From: an uncultured Silvanigrella sp.
GTDB taxonomy: Bacteria > Bdellovibrionota_B > Oligoflexia > Silvanigrellales > Silvanigrellaceae
NCBI GenBank assembly: GCA_903933385.1
Contig: CAIZJW010000090.1
Location: 1-57,175 of the forward strand
DNA: 57,175 nucleotides
Direction of reading: 5' to 3'
The notes under the pieces: model-generated
The model's database searches: none
What the model was told of the DNA's origin: nothing
The model's input: only the letters and a program-made list of their open reading frames with translations
Shown: positions 10,404 through 50,512 of the stretch, in pieces
Layout of the letters: every line of letters starts with the position of its first letter
How positions within the stretch are numbered: position 1 is the stretch's first letter
Program-made: the position numbers and the translations under genes

Positions 10404-11139
10404 GTTTAATTTCCCTTCATTTCGCGGTTTTCAGACGCACTGCTGGCTTAACGTAGAACAGTCCGGCGGACAAGAACGGCCAGACAAAGCAGCATTGCGC
10501 AGAAGTTTGCGGCAAGAAAGAGAAAACCACAAGAAAAACAGTGTATTAAAGAATTTACCATGGGGGCAGGAGCACGTTGCCCGCCTCGGTGAATTTTTTG
10601 GGACATGGCTCCCTGCGAGCTCTCCTGGAGCTCGCGAGTGGCCATCTTCTTGGTTCGGCTATTTTCCCATCGGTTCGGAGCTCAATCTGCTTGGACATCG
10701 CCCCATGGAGGGATGCTACCTCCCGCAAGCACAAACTGACGGTTCATTGCTCTGGTACTCCTGGTCATCAAGTGTCGAATTGTGGCCCAAAGATTCCAGA
10801 TCACTTCCCATCCCACCCGAAGAAACTCTTTTGAGAGACTTCAATCCAAATCCAAACTCTCCTTGGATGGTCATAACTCCTTGCCTTGCAGTTGATTTGT
10901 CTGGAACCCGCCTTGGATATGGAGGGGGTTTCTACGATCGATTTCTTTGCCTCAACAAAGAATCCGTGCTCTCAGTAGCCTGCGTTCCCTCGCAGCTTCT
11001 ATTGGGCGAGCATGCATTACCCAAAGAACAACACGATGAATCGGTTGATATTATTGTCACCGAGAATAGGGTTGTTGTTCTTGCGGAGAAGAAAGCCGAA
11101 AAAATATTGCGTCAACTGCTAAAAATGGACCGAGGATAG
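10402..11139 (+). CDS. 5-formyltetrahydrofolate cyclo-ligase
   Basis: A protein of about 245 residues in the MTHFS/YgfA family, which converts 5-formyl-THF to 5,10-methenyl-THF using ATP. The signature G-T-R-L-G-Y-G-G-G-F-Y-D-R is clear in the C-terminal half, and the basic K-A-A-L-R-R-S-L-R-Q-E-R segment fits the family N-terminus. The start is uncertain: the only in-frame ATG (10402) overlaps the start codon of the divergent gene and gives ~27 extra residues; a TTG at 10495 lacks a ribosome site. The 3' end overlaps the convergent GNAT gene by 28 bases. Confidence 0.88.
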   Translation: MFNFPSFRGFQTHCWLNVEQSGGQERPDKAALRRSLRQERENHKKNSVLKNLPWGQEHVARLGEFFGTWLPASSPGAREWPSSWFGYFPIGSELNLLGHRPMEGCYLPQAQTDGSLLWYSWSSSVELWPKDSRSLPIPPEETLLRDFNPNPNSPWMVITPCLAVDLSGTRLGYGGGFYDRFLCLNKESVLSVACVPSQLLLGEHALPKEQHDESVDIIVTENRVVVLAEKKAEKILRQLLKMDRG

Positions 11140-12053
11140 AGAAGTCCAAGGTTGAAAAACTTCGAAATTTCTTCTGTCGATTTTTCTAGCCCCTGCACCA
11201 GACAAAGAGGCTGCGATTGCCTCTTTTGCAGCAAAGGACTGAGGAGAGAATTCCATAAACCTGGTGCCAATAATAGGTGCTCTGAAATATCGGGATACTC
11301 AAAACTGAAACGAGTTAGAAATTCGAGTGCGCGATGATCGTTATCCGCAAAAAAGCTATGCATGACGCCCTGAAAGTCTATTCCTTTACCAATGAAGCCA
11401 CCTGCAACAATTCTTCCATGTGCATCTTCCAACCAACTGACTAAGAGTCCTTGGATTTTGCTGACATCGATAAATTTCGACCAAGTTGCATGACTTTCAC
11501 CTGACTTTCGCCCTCGCTCTAATGCCTGCCATATTTTCACTAATTGCACTTGCTCTAGCGATGAAATTTCTCTTGGCTTCTGAAGTCGAACATCTTGTGT
11601 GAGGTGTTTTTGAAGGCAAGGAAGGCGCAGAGTGAAAAGACTCTCTTCGCCAACGCGAGTGAAACCTAGATTTTCATAAAAAGATGGTTTGTCGGAAAAT
11701 AAATAAACAAAATCATACCGGCGCTGCAGATGAAGTTCGGCGCAGACCCAGCGAAGCAAATCGCTTCCAACACCGACTCCTTGATTGTCAGGATGAACCG
11801 CAACACTTCCGATGCAGGCTCCGCGCAAAAAAACGGGCTCCGACCAAAATTCGCTATCAACGCTGCACATCCCAATAATCTTTCGGGAACTATCACGTGC
11901 GAGCGCAATAGAGGCTGATGACTCTGGAAGAAAGATGTGTGGGAAGTTGTGGAGATAATCACGCACAGCAAAAGCGCTGTCGAGAATTTCTCCTAGGACA
12001 TTCAGGTGAGGAGGGCGATGGAATGAACAGGTTGTCATCGCCTCCATCTTCAC
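11112..12053 (-). CDS. GNAT-family N-acetyltransferase with C-terminal extension
   Basis: A 313-residue protein. Residues about 15-150 hold a GNAT domain with the acetyl-CoA loop D-N-Q-G-V-G-V-G-S-D and the C-terminal F-Y-E-N-L-G-F-T. The remaining ~160 residues resemble no domain I can name and may be a second degenerate GNAT fold. The GTG at 12053 overlaps the psd stop (GTGA), indicating coupled translation; ATGs at 12047 and 12038 are alternatives. Being last in the mlaF-uvrA-psd unit may suggest an envelope or lipid link, but substrate is unknown. Confidence 0.82.
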   Translation of the reverse strand: MKMEAMTTCSFHRPPHLNVLGEILDSAFAVRDYLHNFPHIFLPESSASIALARDSSRKIIGMCSVDSEFWSEPVFLRGACIGSVAVHPDNQGVGVGSDLLRWVCAELHLQRRYDFVYLFSDKPSFYENLGFTRVGEESLFTLRLPCLQKHLTQDVRLQKPREISSLEQVQLVKIWQALERGRKSGESHATWSKFIDVSKIQGLLVSWLEDAHGRIVAGGFIGKGIDFQGVMHSFFADNDHRALEFLTRFSFEYPDISEHLLLAPGLWNSLLSPLLQKRQSQPLCLVQGLEKSTEEISKFFNLGLLYPRSIFSS

Positions 12054-13003
12054 CTCATTGCCACCGCAAGTCGCTCACCCATTTTGACCAAAGTTTCGCG
12101 CCCATTTTGGGAATTTCTAACAAGGTCGTCGTCGAAACGAATGGCACCTTGCTCAAAAAAGAGGACACAGGTACTCCCGCCAAACTTAAAGTAACCCTTC
12201 TCATCACCGCGTTGAACCTGTGTTCCGGCGCGATATGTTTGCACAATCGAACCAACAAAGAGCGCGCCTATTTCCATGAGAAGCACAGATCCGACTTCAT
12301 TCGACTTTAGCTCGCAGAGCGTTCTCTTGTTCAGACAATACACAGGTAAACCCTGTTCGAGTGCGTACGGACTCACACTGTGCAAAAGTCCAGGAACTGT
12401 TTTGGTGATCCCCACTTTACCAGAAACTGGAAAGTGAAAGCGATGATAATCAGCCGGACAAAGCCTTAAAATAGCGCATGAACCATTGCGGTATTTGTCG
12501 GCAAGTTCCTGGTTTTTGTTAAACAATTCAAAGAGTGGAATTGGGGCCCATTTTACGTATGAAACAGTTTCATCGTCGATCTTTGGAAACACCAACAATC
12601 GACCATCCCCCGGAGATGCAATGGCCTTCTCTTCTTGAGTGACCTCGCGCGCACCTTGGCGCAACTTGCGAGCAAAAAAATCATTGAAGCTGACATACTC
12701 AACCAAATCTTTGCTGCACTCAGTGATATCTATACCCAGCGCTTCAACAAAATCTTCAATTTTGTGTTTGCTGGCAGCCGAGTCGTTGTAGGCCCCATAG
12801 AGATTGCTGAGGAATCGGTTGGTCAGAATGCGCGTGGTGACCGCAAGTCCTGCAGGATGGCCGTAAAATACTTTCATCACATCATCGCCATAAACCTTTT
12901 CAATAAAGGTTTCTTGCTTTTTGCGATCGACGACGCTGATCTGCTTCGATTCAACTCCAAGAATCCGCGACAATGAAAATTCGCTTCCACCCAACAGCGC
13001 CAA
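12050..13003 (-). CDS. psd: Phosphatidylserine decarboxylase proenzyme
   Basis: A 317-residue pyruvoyl enzyme that makes phosphatidylethanolamine from phosphatidylserine at the inner membrane. The self-cleavage motif is F-K-F-G-G-S-T, with Ser277 expected to become the pyruvoyl group. The PADYHRFHFP segment and H-S-V-S-P-Y are also family hallmarks. The start is a TTG at 13003, only 3 bases after the UvrA-like stop, with GGAGGG 9 bases upstream inside that gene. No phosphatidylserine synthase is in the window. Confidence 0.93.
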   Translation of the reverse strand: MALLGGSEFSLSRILGVESKQISVVDRKKQETFIEKVYGDDVMKVFYGHPAGLAVTTRILTNRFLSNLYGAYNDSAASKHKIEDFVEALGIDITECSKDLVEYVSFNDFFARKLRQGAREVTQEEKAIASPGDGRLLVFPKIDDETVSYVKWAPIPLFELFNKNQELADKYRNGSCAILRLCPADYHRFHFPVSGKVGITKTVPGLLHSVSPYALEQGLPVYCLNKRTLCELKSNEVGSVLLMEIGALFVGSIVQTYRAGTQVQRGDEKGYFKFGGSTCVLFFEQGAIRFDDDLVRNSQNGRETLVKMGERLAVAMR

Positions 13004-13006
13004 TGT

Positions 13007-15901
13007 TTAGCCCTCCGACTCAATAGCTTCTTCTCGTTTCACAATACGACCGCCATCGCTCCCGCTTCCCGGACCCAACATCACAAGCTGATCGGCATAA
13101 TTTTGGAAGGCCGAGTGATGCTCGACCACCACAAAGGTATGCCCTTGCCTGGTGAGATCCTGCAAGGTTTTGAGCAACTGACCCACGTCCTTTTCAGACA
13201 ATCCTCGGGTCGGTTCATCTAGTATACAGAATAGTCTTCGGGAACCTTTTGTCAGAGCTGCGCACAAACGCAAGCGCTGCGCCTCTCCCCCTGATATAAA
13301 GGAGGTGGGAACTCCCAAAGGAAGATGACCCAATCCAAGCCTCACTGCGATTTGCAGGGGCTTTGCAAAGCCAGCCTCTCGTCCGAGTTCAGCGCAGCAA
13401 TCCTCAAGGCTAGTTTCAAGCCACTGCTTTATTGTTTTGTCGCGCCATTGAACGGTAAGCACATCGCGCCGGTATCTTCCGCCGCGACAGTCGGGACATT
13501 CCTTATCTACTTCACCAAGAAAAAACAGATCTTCACGAATGAACCCCTTGCCACCGCACTCTTCACACGCTCCCGCGCCATTGAACGAAAAGTCGCTCGC
13601 CATCAAATCCTTTTGCTTGGCATCCGCGGTTTGTGAGAATTGCTTACGAAGGATATCCATAAGACCAAGCACGGTTGCCGGAACACTCGTAATCGACCGA
13701 TGCATGGCACGTTGTTCAACACTCACGACATCGTGAGTTTCAAAGAAATCCTTAGGAACAACAAGCTCGTTCCAAAGCCCTCGTCCTTCATCAGAATCTA
13801 TTCGGTCATTCGACTTTTGACCCGTTTCATTCAGCCACTCGATCGCGGCCTCAAGTCCAGCATGAATTAAAGTCGATTTGCCTGCGCCACTGGGCCCACC
13901 GACGACAGTCAATTGACCAAACGGAACATCAAGATTCAAATCCCTACAATTGTGCATAGAAAACCCGCACAACTGCATGGAAAATGCTGTTGGCTTTGCC
14001 TTTACTTTCCCAGTGTCGACAGAAATCTCCCGGCGCTCAACAGCAGCTATCGAAAGATTCTCAGGATCCATATGAACAGATTCGGGCTCACCAGAGTCGG
14101 CTTGCGCTAAAAGTTCTCCGCCCCGAGTGCCTCCTCCCGGACCAAGCTCTATCCATACATCCGCCTCTCGGATGAGCTCTGGATCATGTTCAACCATAAG
14201 CACCGTGTTACCCAGGTCGCGTAAATCCTTCAGACATGCAACCAACTCAGGAATCTCGGCGCGCCCCAATCCAACACTCGGTTCATCAAGAACATAAAGT
14301 GCATCAGTGAGGCCATTGCCAATCACGCGGGTCAGAAGAACCCGCTGGTACTCGCCACCACTCAATGTTCTGCATCGACGCGACAGGGTGCTCGAACCCA
14401 AACCAAGACGCACAAGAAGATCAACCTTCCTTTGCAGCTCACCCCAAATTTCTCTCAGACCAACAAGCCTGTGCCGATATCGTGGATCACCGTTCACGGA
14501 TTGCATCCAACTTTGGACAATAGTGATTTCACCATGCATCAGATCGCTGTACCTGGTGCTCATGCACCTGGCTTGACGCCCTGCAGGCCCCAAACGCGAA
14601 CCCATGCAATCTGTGCAAGTGACATAGCGCCTGTACTTAGCAAGAAGGATACGCGATTGTTGTTTGTATCTTTCAGCCTCAAGAGCAGAAAAAAAGTCTT
14701 CTATGGCAACAAATTTTGATTTTTTCCGAGCTGTTTTGTCTTCGCTCGAATCGCCCGGAGAACCGGACCAAATAATTTTTCGATGCTCTTTGCTGAGCTT
14801 GTTCCAAGGTGTACCCACCGGAATTCCAAGACTGCGACAGGCTGAAAGCAACTCATCATTCATCCAACCAAATGAATCGGACGCCCAAGGCTTTATCGCT
14901 CCTTGATTCAAACTCAAGCGAGGATCCGGAACTATTTTTGCCTCATCAAGAACGGGAACGTTTCCCAGTCCCCGGCAGGTTCGGCATGATCCCAAGACGC
15001 TTTGCCAATCAAGGTCAGAGGATTGAATTAAGTTTGTTGTTTCGTTGCAGGTTTGGCAGAACGGCTGAACTCGGAAGACATGCTCAGGCGAAATTTTTTC
15101 AGTCTCAGGATCATAATTCAACATCTGCAATGTAGAAAAACGATTTGAGAAACGAACCTGACTCCACACCGAATCAGCACGATTGCGCAGTTCATCGGCA
15201 GCCGTATCAGAGGCAACTCTATCCAGAACGACAAGAATTTCTGAAGGCGATCTTTCGATGGCTTTCCCGTCGAGTTTGAGCTCATCAATTTCAACCAAGC
15301 CGCCATCAATAACTATTTTCGTAAAGCCTTCGAGAACAAAACTTTCGAGAGTTGACTTGCGCTCCTTTTGCGCATCCGGAAGTCGAAATGGAATTGCTAG
15401 AATTTTATAAACTTCACGAGAAGCGTCCACAGCAAATGCTGAATTCAACTTTTCAATCAGCTCGCTAACAGCATGGGTTTCCGCTGCAGAGCCGCATTTC
15501 GCACAGCTTTCATCCATGAGAGTGACAAAAGAAATTCGCAACGGATCAAAAACATCGGCGCTTGTTCCAATCACAGAGCGCGGATCTGTTGAGCGATTCG
15601 TTTGTTTCAGTGCAACAGCAGCCGGAACATTTTCAATTGAATCAAAATCGCCCGCGGGAAGACCCTGAAGAAATTGTCTCTCGTAGGTTCCGAGTGTTTC
15701 CAAAAAACGGCGCTGTGCTTCAGCATAAATCGTGTCAAAAACAAGCGAGCTCTTGCCGCTTCCAGAGACCCCCGTCACGGCAACCCATTTGCCCAAGGGA
15801 ATTTCTAAATTCAAATTCTTTAGATTGTGTGTTTTTACTCCATCACATTTGATGGAGTTATTTTGAGAGACCGGAGGGCGTTTTTCCGTGGACCTAGGCA
15901 T
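13007..15901 (-). CDS. Divergent UvrA-family ATPase (excinuclease ABC subunit A-like)
   Basis: A 964-residue protein with the full UvrA layout: Walker A G-V-S-G-S-G-K-S at 44-51, an ABC signature L-S-G-G-E-Y-Q-R, a second Walker A G-P-S-G-A-G-K-S-T, zinc-finger pairs (C-E-E-C-G-G-K-G and C-P-D-C-R-G-G-R-Y), and a second signature I-S-G-G-E-A-Q-R. It departs from standard UvrA at places normally fixed, such as D-E-P-S-V-G-L-G where His usually follows Leu. It may be the cell's UvrA or a paralogue such as UvrA2. The ATG at 15901 overlaps the MlaF-like stop by 8 bases; longer readings are rejected. Sharing an operon with lipid genes is odd. Confidence 0.85.
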   Translation of the reverse strand: MPRSTEKRPPVSQNNSIKCDGVKTHNLKNLNLEIPLGKWVAVTGVSGSGKSSLVFDTIYAEAQRRFLETLGTYERQFLQGLPAGDFDSIENVPAAVALKQTNRSTDPRSVIGTSADVFDPLRISFVTLMDESCAKCGSAAETHAVSELIEKLNSAFAVDASREVYKILAIPFRLPDAQKERKSTLESFVLEGFTKIVIDGGLVEIDELKLDGKAIERSPSEILVVLDRVASDTAADELRNRADSVWSQVRFSNRFSTLQMLNYDPETEKISPEHVFRVQPFCQTCNETTNLIQSSDLDWQSVLGSCRTCRGLGNVPVLDEAKIVPDPRLSLNQGAIKPWASDSFGWMNDELLSACRSLGIPVGTPWNKLSKEHRKIIWSGSPGDSSEDKTARKKSKFVAIEDFFSALEAERYKQQSRILLAKYRRYVTCTDCMGSRLGPAGRQARCMSTRYSDLMHGEITIVQSWMQSVNGDPRYRHRLVGLREIWGELQRKVDLLVRLGLGSSTLSRRCRTLSGGEYQRVLLTRVIGNGLTDALYVLDEPSVGLGRAEIPELVACLKDLRDLGNTVLMVEHDPELIREADVWIELGPGGGTRGGELLAQADSGEPESVHMDPENLSIAAVERREISVDTGKVKAKPTAFSMQLCGFSMHNCRDLNLDVPFGQLTVVGGPSGAGKSTLIHAGLEAAIEWLNETGQKSNDRIDSDEGRGLWNELVVPKDFFETHDVVSVEQRAMHRSITSVPATVLGLMDILRKQFSQTADAKQKDLMASDFSFNGAGACEECGGKGFIREDLFFLGEVDKECPDCRGGRYRRDVLTVQWRDKTIKQWLETSLEDCCAELGREAGFAKPLQIAVRLGLGHLPLGVPTSFISGGEAQRLRLCAALTKGSRRLFCILDEPTRGLSEKDVGQLLKTLQDLTRQGHTFVVVEHHSAFQNYADQLVMLGPGSGSDGGRIVKREEAIESEG

Positions 15902-48010: not shown

Positions 48011-48268
48011 ATGAGTGTCATAGGCGTCAACACATCCACCCAACGTCAAGCAATCCAGCGCTTTATTGATGAAAAAATTGCACCAGGGGTCCAATCGCAC
48101 GGCGGAGACGTCCTCGTCGAGGGACTCGAAAATGGAATCCTCACACTCAGTTTGTCGGGGGCGTGTGGCAGCTGCAATGTTCAAGCCTATACCTCTGAAT
48201 CTATTGCTAATTATATCCTCGAAGAATTCCCTGAGCTTGACGACGTCGTTGTTAGTGACCCATCCTAA
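48011..48268 (+). CDS. NifU-like C-terminal domain protein (Fe-S scaffold)
   Basis: An 85-residue NifU/NfuA C-domain protein that can hold an Fe-S cluster for transfer. It has Q-S-H-G-G-D-V-L-V-E and the cysteine pair C52-G-S-C55 in G-A-C-G-S-C. ATG 48011 has AGAGGA six bases upstream, better than ATG 48005. Clients in this window could include QueG. Confidence 0.9.
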   Translation: MSVIGVNTSTQRQAIQRFIDEKIAPGVQSHGGDVLVEGLENGILTLSLSGACGSCNVQAYTSESIANYILEEFPELDDVVVSDPS

Positions 48269-48322: not shown

Positions 48323-49954
48323 GTGAACGCATTCCTAAAAATACTCGAGCAATTGTTGACCTCCATGTTGCCCGAACACTGGGCACGGCAGCGCTTCTTT
48401 CCTTTCCCCGCTCCCCCCAGTGGTCCAATTGAACTGTTCGATGCTTGCGTTTTTCATCAAGATGCCAGCGGTGCTTTGGGCATGGCCTGGCTGAGATGTC
48501 CCGGACAGAGCGAGCTCATGACTTTTCCCTTCCGTATTGCTCGCTACAGTCAAGACGGCGACCTCATCATGCTCCCACCTTGGAGTCTCCGAGAGGCATC
48601 CACTGACGCTCTTTTCTACTCAACCTGGAAACAGGCCTTTGCTTCCTCGGGGCGAATGACCACCATGCGCGGCGGTGCTCTTCAGTGCAGACAGTTCGAT
48701 GCTCAATCGAGCTTCAACATCGTCAACCTCTGGACCGACAACAAAAACGCCTGCACGCGGGTTGAAACACAGCACCTGTGTAAGATTTTCAGAGTTCTCG
48801 ACCCAAACCAGCCCCACTCGGTGGAGGCTGACATGCTCGAATACCTGAATGTGCAGAATCATTTTCTGCAACACCCTGAATTAACAACTCGCTACGATTT
48901 CATAGCGGCAAATTCAGACTTGCAACTCCCTGTCGCAATAGTCACACGCTACATCCAAAGCAATGCAAAATTATGGCAGGATCTGACTGCAAAAATTCAA
49001 CATGCGCGATACCCAGAACCAATGCGCGAGAGATCTTCACGACTCACCTGGTATACAATTACGGAGACAATCAGCGGACTCGGACGAATGCTCGCCGAGT
49101 TCCACATCGCCATGTCCCATTGCCGTGACAACGCCCTCATTAATCCGGAAGCCAATACCAGTGCAGCGCGCGATCGGTGGGTCGAAATCACACAGCATAA
49201 ACTCAACGAACGCATTTACCTGGTTCGCAATCTTGCTGCTACGCAACATGGATTCGAGAAAACACTCGATGACCTGCCTCAGTTTGCATATGCGCTCTTT
49301 GAGAAAGTCAGGCAATCAGAACACCTGGGATTGCTCATTCGTATTCACGGTCACGCACATTTAGGACAAGTTCTTATTGGTGAAGAAGGAATTTATCTCG
49401 TCAATTACGAAACCGACAGCCTCGACGATGAAGAATACCGATTACAAAAGCAAACCTGCCTCAAAGATCTTTCGGCAACTCTGTTGAGTCTCCAATTTGC
49501 TTGGCTCACAACTGATCGCAGTGAGGAATTTCCTGTATTTCGCGACATTCTAGGAGCGCAAAGCGACTTCGGTCAGCATGTTATTAAGAGCCTTGAAAAC
49601 TTCGCGACACCCGTGCGTTATACTCCAACCCTGGATGAGCTTGAAAACACACTTGTCAAATCATATTTGCAATCGATTGCAGAAGACTCAACGGGTGTGG
49701 AATTGCTTCCCGAAAAACCCTCGGATCTCGAAAGTCTGTTTGACCTTTGCATACTCATGAGAGTGTTAAAAGAAACAATTCGCGACCTGCAGCATCAGAA
49801 CCCTCGGCACAAAACCGACCTTAAAATTCTCTCTGATTTGGTCCATGGTAAAAATCAAAAACCAAACTTTGAACCCTTTTTTAAGTCACCCGCACGCTCG
49901 CCAGGTTCAAGCAAAACTGACCAAAACTATGGCGTTGATCCAGATTTCTCCTAA
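48323..49954 (+). CDS. Maltokinase-like protein, probable pseudokinase
   Basis: A 543-residue protein with maltokinase (Pep2/Mak) layout: N-cap region with R-Q-R-F-F-P, kinase-like K-I-F-R-V-L with Lys154, G-L-G-R-M-L-A-E-F-H-I-A near 253-263, and R-I-H-G-H-A-H-L-G-Q-V near 340-350. Active maltokinases have H-G-D and D-F-E-G here; this protein has H-G-H (His344) and N-Y-E-T (Asn361). So the catalytic and metal-binding Asp are both lost, each by a codon one base away. No treS, glgE or glgB is near. It probably binds rather than phosphorylates something. The N-terminal match is weaker. Confidence 0.75.
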   Translation: MNAFLKILEQLLTSMLPEHWARQRFFPFPAPPSGPIELFDACVFHQDASGALGMAWLRCPGQSELMTFPFRIARYSQDGDLIMLPPWSLREASTDALFYSTWKQAFASSGRMTTMRGGALQCRQFDAQSSFNIVNLWTDNKNACTRVETQHLCKIFRVLDPNQPHSVEADMLEYLNVQNHFLQHPELTTRYDFIAANSDLQLPVAIVTRYIQSNAKLWQDLTAKIQHARYPEPMRERSSRLTWYTITETISGLGRMLAEFHIAMSHCRDNALINPEANTSAARDRWVEITQHKLNERIYLVRNLAATQHGFEKTLDDLPQFAYALFEKVRQSEHLGLLIRIHGHAHLGQVLIGEEGIYLVNYETDSLDDEEYRLQKQTCLKDLSATLLSLQFAWLTTDRSEEFPVFRDILGAQSDFGQHVIKSLENFATPVRYTPTLDELENTLVKSYLQSIAEDSTGVELLPEKPSDLESLFDLCILMRVLKETIRDLQHQNPRHKTDLKILSDLVHGKNQKPNFEPFFKSPARSPGSSKTDQNYGVDPDFS

Positions 49955-50086: not shown

Positions 50087-50512
50087 ATGGAAATGACTTT
50101 TTCGATCATCAAACCCGATGGTGTGCGTCGCAACTTGGTTGGCAGTATTCTTGGCATGATGGAATCGGCCGGCTTGCGCATTGTCACAACAAAAATGATT
50201 CACATGTCGCGCCGCGAAGCTGAGCAGTTTTACGCTGTCCACAAAGAGCGCCCATTCTTTGGCGAACTCGTTGAATTCATGTGCTCTGGCCCAGTAGTTG
50301 TTTCCGCGCTGGAAGCCCCAAATGCTGTGGTCAAATACCGCGAATTGATGGGTGCAACCGATCCCAAGAAAGCTGACAAAGGCACAATCCGCGCGGTGCA
50401 CGCCCTGAGCATCGGCGAAAACACAGTCCACGGTTCCGACTCCAAGGAAAACGCGGCAATTGAATTGGGCTTCTTCTTCTCTGGGACAGAGCTTGTCAAT
50501 CGCGCGGGCTAA
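50087..50512 (+). CDS. ndk: Nucleoside diphosphate kinase
   Basis: A 141-residue enzyme that balances NTP pools. It has [11 protein letters not shown] and the phospho-histidine in [15 protein letters not shown] is 7 bases before the ATG at 50087. It has its own promoter and terminator. Confidence 0.98.

Follow-up and report, generated by a model that had tools for sequence, protein, structure and literature searches.

A maltokinase-related predicted pseudokinase encoded beside an Nfu-type gene in the Silvanigrellaceae

The locus and its neighbours

The window (the whole stretch of DNA analysed, 57,175 nucleotides in length) comes from an uncultured Silvanigrella sp. and carries a gene for a predicted protein related to maltokinase (Table 1). 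Its frame is free of internal stops over all 543 codons, as had been reported in a first-pass annotation of this DNA, and the GTG start is considered correct because the orthologues begin with an identical MNAF. The GC content of the gene equals that of the window (0.49), which gives no sign of a recent foreign origin. No Rfam elements were found near the gene.

At all 13 loci, the gene directly upstream on the same strand encodes an Nfu-type Fe-S carrier, and 3-81 bp separate the two (54 bp in the window). Consensus scans of the + strand found no terminator-like site between these two genes, and they are probably co-transcribed. Downstream, the usual order at the family loci is ndk followed by tex. 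At one locus (L054, G003:C40), ndk is displaced by approximately 5 kb: about 4.9 kb of extra DNA (10710-15578), absent from the other loci with ndk downstream, separates it from the pseudokinase gene. In the G004 genome, ndk is found elsewhere and its product is 45% identical to that of the window. In G014, a genome of a sister family (L087, G014:C16, 1073-1719, - strand), the Nfu and ndk genes are adjacent, with two bases between the frames and no kinase gene. This apparent empty site is compatible both with insertion in the ancestor of the family and with loss from G014, whose genome is small.

The neighbours are thus Nfu, ndk and tex, and not the TreS, GlgE or GlgB genes that mark the GlgE-pathway context of maltokinases, which bears out the earlier statement that no trehalose or glycogen gene is nearby. 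When the protein's own genome was searched with a TreS-maltokinase fusion as query (E 1e-10), the protein itself was the only TreS-type match.

Table 1. Features of the pseudokinase locus (positions in the window; residues of the window protein unless marked Mak)
Feature	Position	Strand	Basis or remark
Nfu-type Fe-S carrier (NifU-like domain)	48011..48268	+	PF01106 E 8.5e-15; CGSC motif
Predicted maltokinase-fold pseudokinase gene	48323..49954	+	543 aa, GTG start; TIGR02457, hhalign, orthologues in 13 genomes
N-terminal region, in place of the maltokinase cap subdomain	48323..48700	+	Alignments; boundary approximate; outside the TIGR02457 match
P-loop-equivalent residues 139-144	48737..48754	+	Mak Ser136 = Lys141
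K154 codon, equivalent of the ATP-phosphate Lys149 of mycobacterial Mak	48782..48784	+	Invariant
Catalytic-loop equivalent HGHAHLGQ, residues 342-349	49346..49369	+	His344 in place of catalytic Asp
NYE for DFE, residues 361-363	49403..49411	+	Asn361 in place of Mg-binding Asp
RVLKETIRD, residues 480-488, equivalent of KAxYExxYE	49760..49786	+	Lys483/Arg487 for maltose-binding Tyr416/Tyr420
Nucleoside diphosphate kinase (ndk), usual downstream gene	50087..50512	+	PF00334, synteny

Homology, distribution and selection

The curated maltokinase model TIGR02457 matches the window protein from residue 123 onward (E 5.6e-25), with 88 bits against a cut-off of 375; by this rule the protein is a relative of maltokinase and not a member of the family. 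No significant match was obtained in a Pfam scan, and the only PDB matches are maltokinases. An hhalign comparison of 12 orthologues with five TreS-fused maltokinase domains gave a probability of 99.5% (E 9e-23) over 373 columns. An AlphaFold model computed from a two-sequence input has a pLDDT of 31. The likeness to maltokinase (Mak/Pep2, EC 2.7.1.175; TIGR02457; PDB 4o7o, 4u94, 5jy7) comprises homology of the kinase domain and a cap region in the same place. In the orthologues, this N-terminal cap holds many family-specific invariant residues, among them the motif DGDLI...PWS (residues 78-88).

Orthologues are present in 13 of the 14 genomes of the window's family (Silvanigrellaceae), the window included, as 12 full-length copies and the fragments of a thirteenth in genome G013. 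The absence from the remaining genome, G005, was rejected as a true loss: its tex match does not begin before residue 369, and it lacks both ndk and the matching Nfu gene, so that a gap in the assembly is the most likely cause. All assembled family loci contain the gene. Outside the family, no orthologue was found in 43 genomes, and the rest of the relatives set and of the order yielded none. A family profile searched against 58 genomes of the phylum gave just two further matches, neither of which was accepted: L030 (G056), which is encoded beside glgB, carries HGDLHLGQ and DFEGE and is thus an ordinary maltokinase, and L031 (G040, E 2.5e-4), which sits in a pilin-like frame, was taken as chance, as was a weak match on G000:C111 (E 0.17). 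Among the plasmid matches, which show 19-33% identity, are annotated TreS-maltokinase fusions, and the five matches inspected all have HGD and DFE; no phage relatives were found in viral contigs. One public metagenome-assembled genome labelled Betaproteobacteria (VGHE01000004.1, L017) falls in the window's genus, and its label is probably wrong.

The frame is intact in all 12 full-length orthologues. Pairwise Nei-Gojobori dN/dS ratios, a check proposed in the annotation, range from 0.02 to 0.12 where dS is measurable (0.06 for G000-G001, with dS near saturation), and selection on the gene is purifying.

Active-site residues

Maltokinase residues are numbered here as in Mycobacterium vanbaalenii Mak. 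The first-pass annotation had read His344 as standing for the Asp of HGD and Asn361 for the Asp of DFE. Three separate alignments (HMMER [phmmer], hhalign and MAFFT) agree on both assignments, none placing the catalytic Asp elsewhere; the codons are CAC (49352-49354, within IRIHGHAHLGQ) and AAT (49403-49405, within VNYETD). The accompanying description of both catalytic Asp as replaced holds for the window's genus but not for the family, in which just one is lost everywhere, and its wording merges two roles, namely the catalytic base (Asp305) and the Mg-binding Asp (Asp322). At the equivalent of Asp305, the three genomes of the window's genus have H, the eight of g2 and g5 have N, and g3 has R; N also stands in the G013 fragment that covers the site, and D in six of six true maltokinases. 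None of the 12 full-length copies has Asp here, nor does the covering fragment, so that the refuting case named in the annotation, close relatives that keep HGD and DFEG, was looked for and not found. The orthologues share the loss itself, but not always the residue that replaces the Asp, and most keep the Mg-binding Asp. A sequencing error or private mutation was rejected, as the loss is common to the orthologues. Asp305 is invariant according to Fraga et al. (PMC4306142), and its equivalent is nearly invariant in the wider group according to Scheeff et al. (PMC2860764). The equivalent of Asp322 is N in the window's genus and D in all other full-length orthologues; the G013 fragment reads NFD at this site, and so also has Asn. 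By parsimony, the common ancestor of the family had already lost the catalytic Asp, and loss of the Mg-binding Asp followed in part of the family.

Other residues of the maltokinase active site are also missing. The equivalent of P-loop Ser136, which contacts the gamma-phosphate, is K (R once) in 12 of 12 orthologues, compared with Ser in five of five maltokinases, and the equivalents of the maltose-binding residues Tyr416 and Tyr420 are K (T once) and R (K once), respectively, in every full-length orthologue. The earlier suggestion of a sugar sensor is not supported in the maltose sense, since both of these essential Tyr are replaced; binding of a nucleotide, the alternative offered with it, or of an anion may still apply. 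In the published mutagenesis of maltokinase (PMC4306142), the Asp339Asn mutant of the Mycobacterium tuberculosis enzyme, which is the window's own Asp-to-Asn change, had its activity abolished (Fraga et al.), mutation of the P-loop Ser drastically lowered activity, and mutation of Tyr416, Tyr420 or Lys413 practically abolished it. These mutant data imply that the window protein should be unable to phosphorylate maltose.

Unlike these losses, much of the remaining framework is shared with maltokinase. Invariant in 12 of 12 orthologues are K154 (Lys149; the Lys of KIFRVL, whose retention had been pointed out in the annotation), R157 (Arg152), E168 (the Glu of the Lys/Glu pair), H261 (His245), H342 and the HG of HGD, H346 (His307) and D382 (Asp343). 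The kinase-fold motifs (Lys, Glu, VxH His, HGx loop and RDVA Asp) can all be aligned and are invariant save for the lost Asp; judged by these motifs, the protein is predicted to belong to the APH/ELK kinase-fold superfamily. D365 and D368 are also invariant across the family. The former occupies the site of maltokinase Glu326, and the latter is family-specific, with no counterpart in maltokinases.

These two acidic residues raise the possibility of an atypical kinase whose catalytic acid has migrated to D365 or D368 and whose substrate is phosphorylated or otherwise anionic and not maltose. Such an enzyme would account for the invariance of both residues, for the persistence of Lys, Glu, Gln and the Mg-binding Asp in most members, and for a substrate pocket that is remodelled yet conserved. 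However, D365 merely substitutes for Glu326, the Mg-binding Asp has given way to Asn in the window's genus and the G013 fragment (the change that abolishes Mak activity; PMC4306142), and the catalytic position is occupied by H, N or R, a variation that suggests release from catalytic constraint. We regard a migrated acid as unlikely. Still less likely is an AMPylase resembling SelO, in which ATP would be flipped, the DFG Asp would act as the base and AMP would be transferred to a protein such as Nfu. SelO likewise has a kinase fold without the catalytic Asp, with Mg-binding and other nucleotide-binding residues kept (PMC8097203), and the Lys/Glu pair and Mg site are kept in g2 and g5; the DFG Asp, however, is essential in SelO (PMC8097203), and although its equivalent is Asp in g2, g3 and g5, it is Asn in the window (N361), its genus and the G013 fragment. 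Pfam and NCBIfam scans brought up no SelO family.

Two copies stand out. The G004 copy (L007/L055) is the most degenerate of the full-length set, with an HGR loop, DFG for DFE and Ile at the equivalent of Arg334. The G013 copy (L016/L029, L015/L028) is strongly diverged, with HGNLNLWE and NFDD, and is split across two contig ends; the G013 genome is small and 72% complete.

Could the gene simply be decaying, as a maltokinase relic left after loss of the GlgE pathway? The lack of TreS in its own genome, the loss of several active-site residues and the more degraded copy in the small, incomplete G013 genome would fit such a history. Against it, the frame is intact in 12 of 12 full-length copies, structural residues are invariant, the gene is kept at every assembled family locus, and the dN/dS values already contradict it, making decay extremely improbable.

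Predicted role and related systems

The annotation's proposal of a pseudokinase, or repurposed fold, is supported by the family-wide loss of the catalytic Asp together with purifying selection on the gene, and by this combination the protein is classed, from its sequence, as a predicted pseudokinase. The best-supported statement on mechanism is a negative one: canonical phosphotransfer is not expected. The window protein is very likely not a kinase, and it probably acts by binding and not by catalysis. Our preferred reading, which we consider fairly likely, is that of a conserved non-catalytic offshoot of maltokinase, maintained throughout the family, that binds an anionic ligand or a partner, probably with the Nfu carrier.

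Three active-site positions have turned basic in the window protein (K141, K483 and R487), beside K154 and R480, and this remodelled cleft may bind an anionic small molecule or nucleotide; we put the chances of anionic-ligand binding at about even. In the window's genus, binding would probably take place without Mg: with more basic residues in the cleft, an anionic ligand could be held in the absence of the metal, and Asp361Asn would thus be tolerated. Most of the family, on the other hand, keeps the Mg-binding Asp, and residual or other nucleotide chemistry may occur there.

The protein would then serve as a ligand-sensing regulator or as a scaffold, with the Nfu-type carrier as its most likely partner. 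A pure protein scaffold that binds no ligand and serves Nfu or some other partner would agree with the tight linkage to the Nfu gene (13 of 13 loci) and with a cap rich in family-specific invariants. Nevertheless, all 12 full-length orthologues retain the ATP-phosphate Lys and its Glu, which goes beyond the needs of a scaffold; because this pair is invariant, ligand binding is favoured, and a ligand-free scaffold seems rather unlikely. The constant Nfu neighbour suggests the partner and offers a testable function for the predicted pseudokinase. We propose the Nfu pathway tentatively, as the adjacency may be one of operon convenience and the pseudokinase diverges much faster than Nfu or ndk: the window's copy is 34-42% identical to those of other genera, compared with 51-73% for Nfu and mostly 73-79% for ndk. 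The fullest version of our preferred reading, in which a lineage-specific pseudokinase derived from maltokinase would sense an anionic metabolite or nucleotide and regulate the Nfu carrier encoded by the adjoining gene, is doubtful as a whole; if true, it would link energy state to Fe-S delivery.

Little work has been done on bacterial pseudokinases from the small-molecule kinase branch, of which the spore kinases are an example already known (PMC2860764). These bacterial spore kinases (BSK; CotS/YtaA/YutH) belong to the APH superfamily; in some classes the catalytic Asp has disappeared independently but the His/Asp pair that stabilizes the fold remains, and these are predicted pseudokinases (PMC2860764). 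In contrast to the window's family, they occupy another branch of the superfamily and occur in spore formers, and no CotS/BSK family appeared in Pfam or NCBIfam scans of the window protein. The bacterial Ser/Thr pseudokinases ActPs1-3, GLW and DLHK are also conserved families whose function is not known, but they derive from the protein-kinase lineage and not from the small-molecule APH/maltokinase lineage seen here (PMC12599244). In the literature searched for 'maltokinase' and 'pseudokinase' together, no maltokinase-derived pseudokinase was found. The orthologues described here form a natural series of growing active-site decay within one gene, and cultured organisms are among the close relatives, provided that the family is Silvanigrellaceae.
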